Source of the DNA: Halostagnicola sp. A-GB9-2
GTDB taxonomy: Archaea; Halobacteriota; Halobacteria; Halobacteriales; Natrialbaceae
Direction of reading: 5' to 3'
DNA: 64,000 nt
Assembly: GCF_030068615.1 (NCBI RefSeq)
Contig: NZ_JASJOC010000010.1
Span: forward strand, 1-64,000
Shown: positions 4,118 to 10,225 of the stretch, in pieces
Layout of the letters: each line of letters opens with the position of its first letter
Numbering within the stretch: the stretch's first letter is position 1
The notes under the pieces: model-generated
The model's database searches: none
The model's input: only the letters and a program-made list of their open reading frames with translations
What the model was told of the DNA's origin: nothing
Translations under genes and position numbers: made by a program

Positions 4118-4887
4118 GCAACAAACTCGCCGTCGATCGCAGCGATGCGATAAACGTCGGAAAGTCGATCTACTCGCTCGTTATCGTGCTCGTCCTCTGG
4201 GAAATCGTGACCCAACTCGGCATGGTCCACTATTACTTCCTGCCGCCGCTCTCAGATATCATCGTTCGGTTCTACGAGATGACGCTGGACGGGACGCTCG
4301 TCCACCACGGCTACCTGACGGTTCGACGCGCGCTCGTCGGCCTCGTCATCGCCTGCGTGTTTGGAATTCTCGTCGGTGTGTTGAGCGCACGAAATCGCGT
4401 CGCGAGCTGGTTCTGGGATCCGATCATCGAGGTCGGCTATCCGGTTCCGGTCATCGCACTCGTTCCTGTCTTCCTGTTCTGGTTCGGGACGGGCGATCTC
4501 GCGAAGATTATCCTCGTCGCTATCGGCTGTTTCTGGCCCGTCGCGATCAACGTTCGTAACGCGACTCGAGACGTTGATGAGAACCTCATCTGGTCGGCAC
4601 GAATGATGGGGACTTCGGATCGCCAACTCCTCAGAAAAGTGATCGTGCCCGCGTCAGCCCCCGGTATCATCTCCGGCATTCAGATCGCGTTACCGATATC
4701 GCTCATCATCACGTTCGTCTTCGAAATGGTCGCAGGCGGTGGTGGGCTGGGTCACATCGAGATCCAGGGCGTGCGATCGTTCGATTCGGTGCAAGTGTAC
4801 GCGACGCTGATCGCGATCATGATCCTCGGATTCATCCTCGACCGGGCGCTTCGACTGATTCGCTTTCGAATCCTCTCGTGGACGTGA
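4108..4887 (+). CDS. ABC transporter permease, SsuC/TauC type (second)
   Basis: Second permease of the importer, 259 aa. I choose the ATG at 4108 (MDVSNKLAV), which overlaps the end of the first permease; the longer frame from 3850 is antisense-free but lies wholly in that gene. Membrane spans alternate with a docking loop ARMMGTSDRQLLRKVIVPAS, the same position and pattern as in its partner. The stop TGA at 4885-4887 is followed five bases later by a palindromic repeat element, which may define the 3' end of the operon mRNA. Confidence 0.88.
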   Translation: MDVSNKLAVDRSDAINVGKSIYSLVIVLVLWEIVTQLGMVHYYFLPPLSDIIVRFYEMTLDGTLVHHGYLTVRRALVGLVIACVFGILVGVLSARNRVASWFWDPIIEVGYPVPVIALVPVFLFWFGTGDLAKIILVAIGCFWPVAINVRNATRDVDENLIWSARMMGTSDRQLLRKVIVPASAPGIISGIQIALPISLIITFVFEMVAGGGGLGHIEIQGVRSFDSVQVYATLIAIMILGFILDRALRLIRFRILSWT

Positions 4888-4892
4888 ACTAA

Positions 4893-4969
4893 TACTGCCG
4901 GCTGTACGTCGTTCACAATTTTCGTCGCCCCGGGGGTGTGAGGCCTTCACATAGTTACTGCCGGCAGTA
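4893..4969. repeat. 78-bp palindromic intergenic element, copy A (inverted relative to B and C)
   Basis: A 77-bp element ending in inverted repeats: left end TACTGCCGGCTGTA, right end TACTGCCGGCAGTA. The reverse complement aligns along its whole length with the element at 9731-9808 (one-base indel and a dozen or so substitutions), including the core ACCCCCGGGGCGACGA and the flank GTGAACGACGTACAGCCGGC. It begins five bases after a permease stop codon. The transcript could fold into a long double stem. Confidence 0.8.
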
Positions 4970-5083
4970 TAACCCGGTCGCAACGAATCATCGGTCGAGT
5001 TTGGTTTTCGCGGTGGTCGGGATTCGTCGTATGAAATGCTATAAGTGTCCCAAGCCCACATTCCAGAATGAGATTTGAGAACA

Positions 5084-6043
5084 ATGCACGTCGCAATAAT
5101 CGGTGGTGCGAGTACGATCGGCTCGACGGTTGCGTACACGCTGGCGTCGCTGGACCCGGCGCTAGATATATCACTCGTTGATAAAGCGCCGGAACCGGCG
5201 TGGGCCCACGCGATGGATATCACCCACTCGCTGTATCACGTCACGAACGCTCCGGTCGATGAATCGACGGCGGAGTCCTACGGGACGGTCCGGGGTATCG
5301 GAACCGACGAAATGGGTTCTCTCGATCCAGATGTCGTCGTTCTAACCGCCGCGGCACCCCGACCCGACGACGCTACGGATCGCGGGGCCCGCGAGGCGGA
5401 ACTCGAGGCCAACCGCTCGATCGCCGACGATGTCGCCTCACAGCTCCAGTCGGTCGATCCGGTTCCGGTAGTGGTGTTGACGAATCCGATCGATCGGATC
5501 ACCTACAGGCTCTGGAAGCAATCGGGTTGGCCCCGCGAGAAGTTCATCGGCTACTCGCTTTCGGAGACGGCCCGCGTTGCGTACGCGATAGCGGATCGCA
5601 AAAACGTTCATCCGAGCCGAGTTTCCTGTCCGGTGATGGGCGAACACGGCGAAGGAATCGTTCCCATCTTCTCGAGAGCCCGAATCGGTGACGATCCGGT
5701 TTCGCTGACTGACGAACAGCAGTCCGAGATCCTCGAGTACGTTCGATCGGTGCCGTTCGAAATCGCGTCGCGCCGAGGTGCGTCAGAAACGTCGAGATGG
5801 GTCACGAGCGCCGGTGTGACGAGAGTGGTGCGTTCCATACTATCCGGGGAAACTACCTCTCCGGGATGTCTCTCGACGCCGCTGGCGGGCGAATACGGCT
5901 TCGACGATGGCTGTCTCAGCGTTCCAGTTACCCTCGACTCCGGTGGCGTCACGGCGATCCACGAGTGGGAACTCGCCGACTCCGAACACGCCCAACTCGC
6001 CGACGCATTCGAGTCGGTTCGCGCGGATACAGGAGAATTCTGA
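5084..6043 (+). CDS. malate/lactate dehydrogenase-family oxidoreductase
   Basis: NAD(P)-dependent 2-hydroxyacid dehydrogenase of the LDH/MDH family, 319 aa. The Rossmann motif GGASTIG is at residues 7-13, the TNPID motif follows the NAD domain, and the catalytic His is His188 in MGEHGEG. The usual LDSAR motif, which gives the Asp partner of the His and a substrate-binding Arg, here reads SETAR (Glu161), so the Asp is replaced by Glu while the Arg is kept. I start at the ATG at 5084; a TTG at 5075 is possible. A TATA-like CTATAAG lies near 5039. It sits between an importer and an amidohydrolase and may act on a 2-hydroxyacid from that pathway. True malate or lactate activity is doubtful. Confidence 0.8.
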   Translation: MHVAIIGGASTIGSTVAYTLASLDPALDISLVDKAPEPAWAHAMDITHSLYHVTNAPVDESTAESYGTVRGIGTDEMGSLDPDVVVLTAAAPRPDDATDRGAREAELEANRSIADDVASQLQSVDPVPVVVLTNPIDRITYRLWKQSGWPREKFIGYSLSETARVAYAIADRKNVHPSRVSCPVMGEHGEGIVPIFSRARIGDDPVSLTDEQQSEILEYVRSVPFEIASRRGASETSRWVTSAGVTRVVRSILSGETTSPGCLSTPLAGEYGFDDGCLSVPVTLDSGGVTAIHEWELADSEHAQLADAFESVRADTGEF

Positions 6044-6120
6044 CACTCTCGGCTGTAACTATGTGTGAATTCTCGCACCCCCGAGCGGCGAGAATTGTGA
6101 ACGACTTCCAACCGAGAGTA
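6044..6120. repeat. 78-bp palindromic intergenic element, copy B
   Basis: Same orientation as the element at 9731. It starts at the base after the dehydrogenase stop codon TGA (6041-6043). The ends ACTCTCGGCTGTAA and TTCCAACCGAGAGT pair with compensating changes (CTCTCGG/CCGAGAG in place of CTGCCGG/CCGGCAG), while the core TTCTCGCACCCCCG is unchanged. Paired substitutions in the arms argue that base pairing is under selection. Confidence 0.8.
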
Positions 6121-6284
6121 TGTACTCGTGGCGGGGACGAAAACTAGCTTTAGCCGTCGTTTGCACCGGAAAATGGGATTCGGCAGATACTGGAGCGGCA
6201 CTGGTTGCATCGAACCTGCACAATCTTTATAGTCAAATGGAGACTCGTTATATGTGTGGTACTACCAGCCATGGGTGAACTAGG

Positions 6285-7373
6285 ATGATTGACGCGGCGG
6301 AACACCGTGTCGTCGACTGCGACTGGCACTATCAGGACTCGTTTACGGATATCGTCGAGTACATGGAGGAGCCCTGGAAGACGAAATACGAGAAGAGCAA
6401 CTGGGACGCGGCGGGCGTCAAACAAAATCTGAGTTCGTTTTTCCCCACGTCGACCGGCGACCGCCAGGCCTACGGGAAGATCGAACGCGAACACTCGAAC
6501 TACCCGGATAAAGCCGAAACGCCGGACAGAGTTCGGGAGGGAATGGAGTTTCTAGACGTCGACCAGAGCATCCAGATCTCTCATCTCGCACTCGCAATGG
6601 GCGGCGTACAAACCGATGACGAACGCACGCAGGCGTTTGCGAAAGCCCACATCGAGTACATGCTCGAGGAGGTTCTCGATCCGGACGACGGCGTGTACGG
6701 ACTCGCGCCGCTTCCCTACAGCGATATCGAAACGTCCCTCGAGATCCTCGACCGAGTCGAAAACGAACCGGCGATAAAGGGGGCGTGTTTCATCACCGCC
6801 GGCGCGAATCCCCCCCTCGGCAACCGGAAGTACGACCCGCTGTACAAACGGTGTGAGGAAATTGGTTACCCAGTGGTCTTTCACACAGGCGGATCGGGAC
6901 TGGATGACTACGTCCGAGCGGGCTATCAGGAGATGCTCGAGACGCACACGCTCGGCTTTCTCGAGTCGAACATGTCCCAACTCGTCAGCGTGACGTGTCA
7001 GGGCGTCCCCGAAAAGTTCCCGGATCTCGATATCGTGTTCATGGAATCGGGTGTCACGTACGTTCCTGGTTTGATCAGTCGCCTCGAGGAGGAGTACCTG
7101 AAACGGCCCGAAGAGGCGCCGTTGCTCGAGAAGCGACCGAGCGAGTATATCACCGACTACTACTTCGGCACCCAGCCACTCGAGGTCTCGGCCAGTCCCG
7201 ACCTCCTCGAGTTGTGTTTCGATATGTTGGGGACCGATCGGTTGCTCTACGCGTCGGACTACCCGCACTGGGACTTCGATAGCCCGTCGACGATCACAGA
7301 TCTCCCCTTCATCTCCGACGAAGAGCGGAAGGCTATCTTGGCGGGGAACGCTGTGGAGGTGTTCGACCTATGA
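6285..7373 (+). CDS. amidohydrolase family 2 (ACMSD-like) metal hydrolase/decarboxylase
   Basis: Member of the amidohydrolase-2 (aminocarboxymuconate-semialdehyde decarboxylase-like) group, TIM-barrel enzymes that use a divalent metal to hydrolyse or decarboxylate aromatic-type acids. The D-x-H strand-1 motif is DCDWH (residues 11-15), VVFHTGGSG supplies the strand-5 His, and YASDYPHWD gives the catalytic Asp325 and His328. The 362-aa length fits the family. The gene begins at the ATG at 6285, and its last four bases overlap the start of a Rieske protein (ATGA overlap), so the two are cotranslated. With the importer and dehydrogenase upstream, it suggests uptake and breakdown of an aromatic or heterocyclic acid; this is an inference and no substrate is proven. 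Confidence 0.85.
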   Translation: MIDAAEHRVVDCDWHYQDSFTDIVEYMEEPWKTKYEKSNWDAAGVKQNLSSFFPTSTGDRQAYGKIEREHSNYPDKAETPDRVREGMEFLDVDQSIQISHLALAMGGVQTDDERTQAFAKAHIEYMLEEVLDPDDGVYGLAPLPYSDIETSLEILDRVENEPAIKGACFITAGANPPLGNRKYDPLYKRCEEIGYPVVFHTGGSGLDDYVRAGYQEMLETHTLGFLESNMSQLVSVTCQGVPEKFPDLDIVFMESGVTYVPGLISRLEEEYLKRPEEAPLLEKRPSEYITDYYFGTQPLEVSASPDLLELCFDMLGTDRLLYASDYPHWDFDSPSTITDLPFISDEERKAILAGNAVEVFDL

Positions 7374-7747
7374 GCGACGAGGGACTCGTCGAGGTCAAGG
7401 CGGCCGAATCGTTCGAGGAGGGCGACCACGAACTGGTCGACGTTCGCGGCGTCGAGGTCGGCGTCGTCCGGGACGAAGACGAGTTCTACGCGTTTCGAAA
7501 CACCTGTCCGCACGACGGCGGGCCGGTGTGTACGGGTCCCGTCTCACGGAAGCTCGTCGGCGAGTTCGTCGGCCCCGGCGAACGCGTAGAGCGCTCGTTC
7601 AGCGACGAGAAGATCATCTCCTGTCCGTGGCACGGCTGGTCGTTCGACCTCGAGACGGGCGAAAACGTCGCAGATGACGGTATCGTTCTCCCGTCGTACG
7701 ACGTGATCGTCGAAGACGGTGTCGTGTACGTCGACGATGGTAGGTGA
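7370..7747 (+). CDS. Rieske [2Fe-2S] ferredoxin-like protein
   Basis: Stand-alone Rieske protein, 125 aa, acidic and soluble with no membrane anchor, so probably an electron carrier for an oxygenase rather than part of a bc complex. The cluster ligands are Cys46/His48 (CPH) and Cys85/His88 (CPWH). The spacing between the two motifs is 36 residues instead of the usual 15-17; the extra segment is GPVSRKLVGEFVGPGERVER. The ATG overlaps the stop of the amidohydrolase. No oxygenase large subunit is encoded nearby, so its partner is unknown. Confidence 0.85.
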   Translation: MSDEGLVEVKAAESFEEGDHELVDVRGVEVGVVRDEDEFYAFRNTCPHDGGPVCTGPVSRKLVGEFVGPGERVERSFSDEKIISCPWHGWSFDLETGENVADDGIVLPSYDVIVEDGVVYVDDGR

Positions 7748-7866
7748 GTGAACCGCAACCGCTCTCTCGGGTTACTCACGATTCGAAACGCTCTCGTCCC
7801 GGTTAATAATATACTTGTCAGTTGTACACTTTGTTCGAACGCGGTAATCGAACAGCCGATTCGCGA

Positions 7867-8355
7867 TTAGCCGACCCGGTACACGAATAACTTCACTCCG
7901 TTCGGTTGTCGAGTACCGGACGCCACGAACACGCTCTGTGTCAACCACTCGAGATCCGAATCGGCAGTTTCGAAGGAGGGGACCGACTGGAAGTAGACCT
8001 CGTCGGGATCGACGGGCTTTCCATCCCGAAGTCGCTTGCTGGTTTCCGGCGAAGCATAGCGAATCCCCTCGTTTTCGACGTAAACGCGGGACCCGTTGTC
8101 CGTTTCGAACGCGTACTTGGCGACGAGTTCGGTCGCGCGTTCGGTCCGGTACAGCTGGTAGTCGGCTCCCGCGGCCAGGACCGTCCCCTCACACCGTCCG
8201 GAGACGGTTCCTCCACTAATCGGAATGATGCGCCGTCGACCATCGCCCGTGTCGCCGATTTCGATGGGATCGTCGACTTCGATGTCGAGTTCGAGTACCT
8301 GCTCGAGCGTTGGAATATGCGGATCCGTCTCGTGGTCTGCGTTCTCTGTACCCAT
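7867..8355 (-). CDS. DUF3237 (UPF0311) family protein
   Basis: A 162-aa soluble protein with the DUF3237 pattern: IGDTGDGRRRIIPISGGTV near residue 52, then GADYQLYR and YAFETDNGSRVYVENEGIRY. Family members are small beta-barrel proteins with no established biochemical role, though some sit in catabolic gene clusters. It converges on the amidohydrolase/Rieske operon, so it is adjacent to that cluster but separately transcribed. The ATG at 8355 is preceded by AT-rich sequence rich in TTTTCT. Confidence 0.75.
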   Translation of the reverse strand: MGTENADHETDPHIPTLEQVLELDIEVDDPIEIGDTGDGRRRIIPISGGTVSGRCEGTVLAAGADYQLYRTERATELVAKYAFETDNGSRVYVENEGIRYASPETSKRLRDGKPVDPDEVYFQSVPSFETADSDLEWLTQSVFVASGTRQPNGVKLFVYRVG

Positions 8356-8556
8356 GACAGAAAACTCTCACCCCTGGCAGTTATAGTTAGTGTTAGAAAA
8401 TTTTAATGTGGTCGAGATTCGAGCCGATTTGCAACCGCGGTGGCTCCCGCGGTACTCCGTCGCGACTACCGACAGCCACTTCTATACGTGCACTATCACG
8501 TCGGTGAACGGTTCGTTTGCCTAAACGTTTAGTAGACTCCAGTCGAATGCTACCGT

Positions 8557-8982
8557 ATGGCAATCCTCTGTGCAATCGACGACGATCACTCGACCGAAGC
8601 GGTCCTGACGACGGCCGACGATCTCGCTCGAGCGTTCGACGACGAACTGGTCGTCCTTTCCGTCATGACCGAAGACCGATTCGAGGCCCGAGCAAAGAAC
8701 CAACCCGAATACTACGTCGACGACGCTGCTCGAGAGGCACAAACGACCGCTCGCGAAACCGCTGGCGACGTTCTTGAATCCACCGACCGAGTCGTCGCTC
8801 GTGGCAGAGTCGGTGATCCGGCCGAGGAAATTCTCGAGGTCGCAGAGCGGTTGCCCGCCAGATATCTCGTCGTGGGCGGACGGAAGCGCTCGCCCGTAGG
8901 CAAAGCGCTCTTCGGAAGCGTAACCCAGTCGATACTATTGGGCGCTTCCTCTCCCGTCGTTGCCGTCATGAGTGAGCAATAA
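8557..8982 (+). CDS. universal stress protein, UspA family
   Basis: Single-domain UspA protein, 141 aa. It opens with the usual first strand MAILCAIDDDHSTEAVL and ends with the nucleotide-binding motif G-x2-G-x9-G-S, seen as GGRKRSPVGKALFGS, so it should bind ATP. It is followed on the opposite strand by a second UspA gene with an almost identical C-terminal motif (RKRTPTGKALFGSVTQ), and the pair probably came from a local inverted duplication. Confidence 0.9.
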   Translation: MAILCAIDDDHSTEAVLTTADDLARAFDDELVVLSVMTEDRFEARAKNQPEYYVDDAAREAQTTARETAGDVLESTDRVVARGRVGDPAEEILEVAERLPARYLVVGGRKRSPVGKALFGSVTQSILLGASSPVVAVMSEQ

Positions 8983-9053
8983 CGCCCCGAATACGGCAAA
9001 TACGTCACAACGTCCCGGCTAGAGTATCACCGGATCACGGAAGCCGTGACAGC

Positions 9054-9446
9054 TTACTTCGGTGTACAGACGAGCACCGGCGTGTCCGATTCGAGGATCA
9101 CCTGTTGTGTCACGCTCCCGAAGAGTGCTTTCCCGGTCGGCGTTCGCTTTCGACTGACGAGGCTAATTGACTCGGCCTCGAGAGTCTCTGCCTTTTCGAT
9201 GATATCTCGCGCTGGATCTCCACCCGATTGGGATACCTCGACCGTGAACCCCTCTTCTTCGAGCAGTTCTGTGGCTTTCTTCACGGAACTCAGGCTCTCG
9301 ACGTCCGCATTTTCGCCGTCGGAACGGAAGACGTGATAGATGTGAACCGTCGTTTGGCTTTCCTCGAAGGGCTGTCTCGTAATGGACGCTACTTGAGTCT
9401 TTGTTCGTTCGACGCTCGTGTCGATGCACAACAGTATCGTTTTCAT
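9054..9446 (-). CDS. universal stress protein, UspA family
   Basis: UspA-like domain, 130 aa from the ATG at 9446 (MKTILLCIDTSVER). A longer frame to 9542 adds a basic leader unlike Usp N-termini and is rejected. The C-terminal segment SRKRTPTGKALFGSVTQQVIL closely matches the UspA encoded 70 bp away in the convergent direction, although the first Gly of the ATP motif is Ser here. The protein therefore may not bind nucleotide as its neighbour does. Confidence 0.85.
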   Translation of the reverse strand: MKTILLCIDTSVERTKTQVASITRQPFEESQTTVHIYHVFRSDGENADVESLSSVKKATELLEEEGFTVEVSQSGGDPARDIIEKAETLEAESISLVSRKRTPTGKALFGSVTQQVILESDTPVLVCTPK

Positions 9447-9730
9447 AGGTTGGTGATCTCGTTTCCTGTCGTCACTCCGGTGGGTCGATTGCGCGACCGA
9501 AGTACGTTCTCCCACACGTTCTATTCTACTAACGTATTTCAACTACTGAGTTATATGCATTTCTATCGTTATATGTAATACAAAACTCGGCATAAAGGAG
9601 ACGGCTCCTTCCAGTGTCGCTGATCGCTTTCGCCACCTCAGATGTGTGACACGACCTTGTTCCCCTTCGGCGGGTGATTCGCAACCGTAAGAGGACGTGT
9701 CCGGAGTTATTCGTCGACGAATCGTCCATA
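9447..9730. other. intergenic region without a recognised gene
   Basis: This stretch, together with repeat copy C, separates a UspA gene and a thioesterase gene that are both on the minus strand. The part 9530-9600 is AT-rich with TTATATG motifs and may carry the promoter of the UspA gene at 9446. I see no convincing gene or RNA. Confidence 0.4.
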
Positions 9731-9808
9731 TACTGCCGGCTGTAACGATGTGAAGATTCTCGCACCCCCGGGGCGACGAGAATCGTGAACGACGTACAGC
9801 CGGCAGTA
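9731..9808. repeat. 78-bp palindromic intergenic element, copy C
   Basis: The most regular copy: ends TACTGCCGGCTGTA and TACAGCCGGCAGTA pair perfectly over 14 bases, and an inner stem TTCTCG/CGAGAA encloses the core CACCCCCGGGGCGA. It abuts the stop codon of the thioesterase gene (TTA at 9809-9811 on the plus strand). On the minus strand the bases before the element read CTAA, the same as those before copy A, so the element appears to have supplied this stop codon. Confidence 0.82.
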
Positions 9809-10225
9809 TTAGTCTCCCTCGAGTTGGATGTCGACGGTTTCTAGCGAACGCCGAAGGTCGTCGGGAATCTCGATTCCGCTATCGCCTCCGATGGGAACGC
9901 AGACTCGGTGCTCGGTTCCTTCGAACACGATATCGCCGTCGTGAGTGGCCGTGTATTCGAACTGCACGCTCGTTTCACCGACGGTTGGCAGCAGTTCAAT
10001 TGCGACGTCGTCACCGGCCGCTATCTGTCGGTTGAAATCGAAGTCCATCGAAACGAGCGGCAACCCAAACTCATGGGTTTGGGACAGCTCCCAGAACGGC
10101 CAGCCGATGGCTTCCATACACATATCCGAAGTTTCGTGAACCGCGTCGATCATGCGAGGGTAGTGAGCGATACCGAACGGATCCGTATCCGAGAACCGTA
10201 CTGTCCAGATGCGCGTAAAACTCAT
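9809..10225 (-). CDS. acyl-CoA thioesterase, 4HBT hotdog family
   Basis: Hotdog-fold thioesterase of the 4-hydroxybenzoyl-CoA thioesterase family, which hydrolyses acyl- or aroyl-CoA. The active-site helix start is seen as VRFSDTDPFGIAHYPRMID near residues 9-27, with the catalytic Asp in the DTD segment. I start at the ATG at 10225 (MSFTRIWTVRF), 138 aa, because the family begins there and a TATA-like box at 10257-10263 lies about 35 nt upstream. The 40 extra residues of the longer frame are unlike the family. The stop codon lies directly against a palindromic element. Confidence 0.85.
   Translation of the reverse strand: MSFTRIWTVRFSDTDPFGIAHYPRMIDAVHETSDMCMEAIGWPFWELSQTHEFGLPLVSMDFDFNRQIAAGDDVAIELLPTVGETSVQFEYTATHDGDIVFEGTEHRVCVPIGGDSGIEIPDDLRRSLETVDIQLEGD

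Follow-up and report, generated by a model that had tools for sequence, protein, structure and literature searches.

Palindromic elements at gene ends in the window

The window, i.e., the complete stretch of 64,000 nucleotides of Halostagnicola sp. A-GB9-2 that was analysed, carries three palindromic elements of about 78 bp located at the ends of genes. Copy A (77 bp, positions 4893-4969, minus strand) is inverted relative to the two others. It begins 5 bp after the TGA stop (4885-4887, plus strand) of an ABC-transporter permease-like gene and is bordered by two identical TAA triplets, the left (4890-4892) and right (4970-4972) target site duplications (TSDs). Copy B (77 bp, 6044-6120, plus strand), whose terminal inverted repeats (TIRs) are of the CTCTCGG/CCGAGAG subtype, directly adjoins the TGA stop (6041-6043, plus strand) of a malate/lactate-dehydrogenase-like gene (5084-6043). 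This stop codon doubles as the left TSD, and the right TSD has decayed to TGT (6121-6123). Copy C (78 bp, 9731-9808, plus strand), the best-preserved palindrome of the three, directly adjoins the TTA at 9809-9811, which is the TAA stop of a thioesterase-like gene on the minus strand and doubles as the right TSD, the left one having decayed to ATA (9728-9730).

The three copies are found exactly where a preliminary description of this DNA had located them, and the distance of 0-5 bp from a stop codon that it gave for each of them holds. The dense cluster that it saw there indeed consists of three copies in 4.9 kb but is only mildly unusual (P about 0.03 given the ~42 copies of the genome). No Rfam match is present within the window. 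In a genome of the same genus (G003), the genes around sites A and B are kept in synteny and both elements are absent; its gene at site B ends at the same position as the gene of the window, without the element.

A dispersed haloarchaeal family

The element is short (~78 bp), non-coding, devoid of a transposase gene and near-palindromic from end to end, with a TIR of 14 bp, TACTGYCGGCTGTA, at both ends. The search of the whole genome and of related haloarchaea suggested in the preliminary description reveals that the own genome carries some 40 copies of a family also present in many haloarchaea. Using copy C as a query, BLAST recovers ~40 dispersed places in the 4.68-Mb genome down to E~1e-12, and at least two further copies emerge from a search with the TIR pattern. 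When at most one mismatch is allowed, this pattern matches 44 + 46 times vs 5 + 9 times for the reversed-pattern control, and the copy number in the genome is far above chance. The own copies display a mean identity of 89% to their own consensus and of 82% to one another.

A pattern scan of GTDB genomes detected at least 112 stretches, all of them with haloarchaeal titles among the matches listed. Haloarchaeal plasmids also carry copies, and no match to the element pattern was found in viral contigs. Copies are detectable in 4 of the 40 relatives and in none of the four genomes of the same genus. In the genome of Natribaculum breve (G019; CP095391), one copy lies on contig C2 at 99693-99770, and each strand carries over 130 of the family's TIR ends. 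The 14-mer end is self-palindromic, and the seemingly overlapping dimers (L063, L129, L134, L137, etc.) are probably an artefact of this property; the list of 185 copies used below for placement is inflated by a few of these pairs, with hardly any effect on the set of 127 copies with a perfect TSD. Variants of 128 bp, with an additional hairpin segment inserted in the core, are found in the Halobacteriaceae archaeon SHR40 (G045, L190-L193).

Target site duplication and empty sites

Flanks of 3 bp are identical on both sides in 140 of the 203 copies for which they can be read, and all 140 are TNA triplets (67 TGA, 52 TCA, 14 TAA, and 7 TTA), the preferred target context being C-TSA-G. For two miniature inverted-repeat transposable elements (MITEs) of this family in N. 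breve, the homologous sites of N. longum (CP095395) are empty and display a single TNA in a junction that is otherwise unchanged. Copies are thus shown to insert precisely, as one unit, duplicating a 3-bp TNA target and preferring C-TSA-G. The family is a MITE and not an element of the REP or terminator type. Two options had been envisaged in the preliminary description, namely a REP-like element ending or protecting mRNAs and small mobile elements settled at gene ends. Only the latter is supported, by the TIRs, the 3-bp target duplication, the precise empty sites and the likely partner insertion sequence (IS) described below.

A candidate IS630-family partner

A looser pattern (TNA followed by TACTRNCNGB) applied to N. 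breve uncovered an insertion sequence of ~1,070 bp with the ends TACTGTCGGCT... and TACTCACGGACATAAGTACGTAAAG, the transposase of which has 18 matches in this genome. Both halves of the transposase score above the cut-off of the NCBIfam IS630 model (NF033545), with Pfam DDE_3 (PF13358)/HTH_33. The duplication known for IS630 elements is TA and not a 3-bp TNA. The present IS combines an IS630-type DDE transposase with a duplication other than the 2-bp TA: among ten complete N. breve copies of ~1,070 bp, TNA stands on the right side in 10/10, a side that, unlike the left one, was outside the selection criterion, and left and right triplets are the same in 8/10. For one full-length N. breve copy, a clean empty site with a single 3-bp TCA is found in N. 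longum.

The left 11 bp of the IS match the MITE terminus at its exact end, and the best left ends, e.g., TACTGTCGGCTGAA, match 13 of the first 14 bases of the MITE. Positions 12-26 of the MITE resemble the right end of the IS, with a mean z of about 3 against shuffles and values above the shuffles in ~70% of cases. Related IS in other genomes (84-90% protein identity) end in TACTG[TA]CGGCT[AG]AA and TACTCACGGACATAAGTACGTAAA, with small variations. The MITE thus shares its ends and its duplication with an autonomous IS630-type element, as seen in the genome of N. breve, where amplification is recent, and in relatives of this species. Judging from these sequences, the ~1,070-bp IS is likely the autonomous partner of the MITE, which itself looks like a condensation of the IS ends.

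The distribution across genomes counts against this partnership, as the correlation between IS and MITE presence is weak: among 41 genomes, a close IS and the MITE co-occur in only two of the five MITE-bearing ones, and four of the 41 have a close IS without a BLAST-detectable MITE. A search for longer autonomous copies bounded by the identical 13-bp TIR found none in the own genome and none among the matches listed for six MITE-rich genomes; solo ends and widely spaced end pairs were checked as candidates for such copies and rejected. An IS1031-like parent of the IS5 family, considered for its TNA, was dropped once the IS630-type IS surfaced.

In most N. breve copies of the IS (L269 and others), an apparent frameshift at a run of A (CAAAAAAAG) divides the transposase between two frames, whereas two transposase matches of the same genome each fall within one long uninterrupted frame (355 and 371 aa), which suggests frameshifting.

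In the genome of the window, a search at E<=1e-30 yields no close relative of the partner's IS630 transposase; the best match there is 37% identical and has internal stops. The window copies are diverged and the target duplications are decayed in two of the three. The lack of a close partner IS together with the decayed duplications suggests that the window copies are inactive relics.

Placement at stop codons

With genes called by a self-trained gene caller, 64 of the 185 copies stand exactly at a stop codon. For the perfect-TSD set, placement was counted on the pre-insertion sequence: 45 of the 127 copies are at stops, 74 are intergenic and 8 are in genes, whereas 7.8, ~35, and 84, respectively, would be expected if TNA sites in the same 5-mer contexts were targeted uniformly. 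The placement noticed in the preliminary description is therefore real, and the random insertion within genes that could have spoken against it is not observed. Expressed as observed/expected by 5-mer context, the ratio is 5.8 at stops, about 3 in the 3' flank, 2.4 in the 5' flank, 1.4 far from genes and 0.1 inside them. A similar split is displayed by recent MITEs of N. breve (5 at stops, 13 intergenic, 1 inside a gene), and on the plasmid pHH400 of Haloarcula hispanica the element lies immediately next to the stop of HAH_RS18455, a CDS annotated on the minus strand.

This placement is largely accounted for by the fact that TNA includes TGA and TAA, combined with the loss of insertions within genes. 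Indeed, as both stops are TNA sites, an insertion on them doubles the codon without altering the protein, and, because insertions inside genes are lost, survivors accumulate at stops and 3' flanks. A residual, about twofold, excess at stops could be due to survival or to targeting.

Alternative explanations

When the comparison is confined to non-coding sites sharing the 5-mer, 21 insertions are expected at stops vs 45 observed (z 5.9), an excess that could mean that the transposase of the MITE actively targets gene 3' ends, e.g., via a feature of transcription termination. This is considered quite unlikely, as a 3.5-fold enrichment is also seen over the first 40 bp of the 3' flank, in line with a smooth gradient of survival, and as none of the 22 placed copies of the partner IS stands at a stop. 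Nine of these IS copies lie inside called genes; the sample is small and was chosen by TNA flanks. The placements of MITE and IS differ, a point against the present model. It is very unlikely, in turn, that a different transposase moves the MITE and that the resemblance to IS630 ends is only a coincidence or a matter of shared ancestry. The own genome and several MITE-rich genomes without a close IS would fit such a scenario, which leaves aside that MITE and IS have in common the 11-bp terminus at the exact end, a subterminal sequence and the TNA duplication, itself unusual.

A REP-like functional RNA hairpin, selected at gene ends for transcription end or for protection of mRNA 3' ends, would account for the stop-codon excess beyond the target sequence and for the stable hairpins formed by the three window copies (z -2.0 to -8.3). 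Strong hairpins are nevertheless to be expected of any element that combines long TIRs with a palindromic core. Selection for the fold had been deduced in the preliminary description from the arm change of copy B, a conclusion that is not retained since the CTCTCGG/CCGAGAG variant recurs in another copy of the own genome (L034) and in MITEs of a relative (G007, L154), and is thus an inherited subfamily variant rather than an independent compensation. Similarly, the expected excess of compensating arm changes is absent: five pairs vary on both sides vs 4.2 in shuffles, the covariation falls mostly on two pairs of the TIR and one of the core, and doubly changed cells are in excess chiefly owing to inherited TIR variants. 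The independent compensatory changes of a selected RNA hairpin or terminator are therefore lacking. Besides, a REP-like role fits poorly with the precise empty sites and their TSD, with the many copies away from stops (the 74 intergenic ones), with the fact that copies at own stops show no preference for the sense orientation (4 sense vs 10 antisense) and with the absence of the element from same-genus relatives carrying the same genes. This explanation appears extremely improbable.

Proposed mechanism

The repeats of the window are read here as relic copies of a TNA-duplicating MITE, probably moved by an IS630-type transposase, the survivors of which stand at stops; the probability of this reading is put at about 0.88. 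An IS630-family transposase, as far as can be judged from the ends, would recognise the MITE and move it in trans. Insertion onto a TGA or TAA stop would duplicate the codon and leave the stop of the gene intact, whereas insertions inside genes would be eliminated, so that survivors would pile up at stops and in 3' flanks. At stops, the TSD copy acting as the stop would be kept by selection while the other one would drift, as may be the case for copies B and C. A broader proposal is tentative and rather unlikely to hold as a whole: in one haloarchaeal IS630 subgroup, a shift from TA to the 3-bp TNA would have created self-healing sites at stops, and hence a safe-haven strategy of MITEs across the class, possibly biased towards gene ends.

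Relation to known elements

RUP from Streptococcus pneumoniae, with IS630-Spn1, is the nearest published analogue and uses TA-containing targets (PMC2229807). It is a non-coding MITE of 107 bp, with ~108 intergenic copies and TIRs like those of an IS630-family IS (PMC2229807), whereas the present element is archaeal, palindromic over its whole length and associated with a 3-bp TNA. The MITEs of Haloquadratum walsbyi are likewise non-coding and haloarchaeal; according to PMC3119063, they have the terminal repeats and the duplication length of their parent transposon, and copies may outlive the functional transposase. In contrast with the present family, the main text of that paper mentions no IS630 parent for them. 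The same paper describes the SMRs of Haloquadratum, which are also short haloarchaeal repeats (~110 bp) with prominent ITRs and many copies, but which are presented as lacking a target duplication and targeting other mobile elements (PMC3119063); the element studied here does have a duplication. The palindrome-associated transposable elements (PATEs) resemble it as short transposase-free haloarchaeal repeats with palindromes and differ by being IS605-related and, as described there, without ITRs or duplication (PMC3119063). REP/BIME elements are palindromic, present in many copies and near gene ends as well; they have no target duplication, whereas the present element has the 3-bp TNA, TIRs and a DDE-type partner. 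No description of the family was found in the open-access literature, to which this claim of novelty is confined, and a literature search for the terminus TACTGCCGGC returned unrelated papers only.

A palindrome recurring at many haloarchaeal gene ends, which might otherwise pass as a terminator or regulatory RNA, is thereby explained and linked to a specific transposase group. The TNA duplication, as opposed to the TA typical of IS630, offers a simple reason for the presence of a harmless mobile element exactly on stop codons. With its abundant TIR ends and many near-identical full-length IS copies, N. breve represents a ready system for transposition tests. The same genome (G019) harbours a second MITE family of 78 and 108 bp (L235-L262) with the TIR TACTRCCGGACA, which has an unrelated palindromic core yet the same TNA duplication. 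Two of its loci (L251 and L261) are nested, the 78-bp family being inserted inside the 108-bp family at an internal TGA/TCA.
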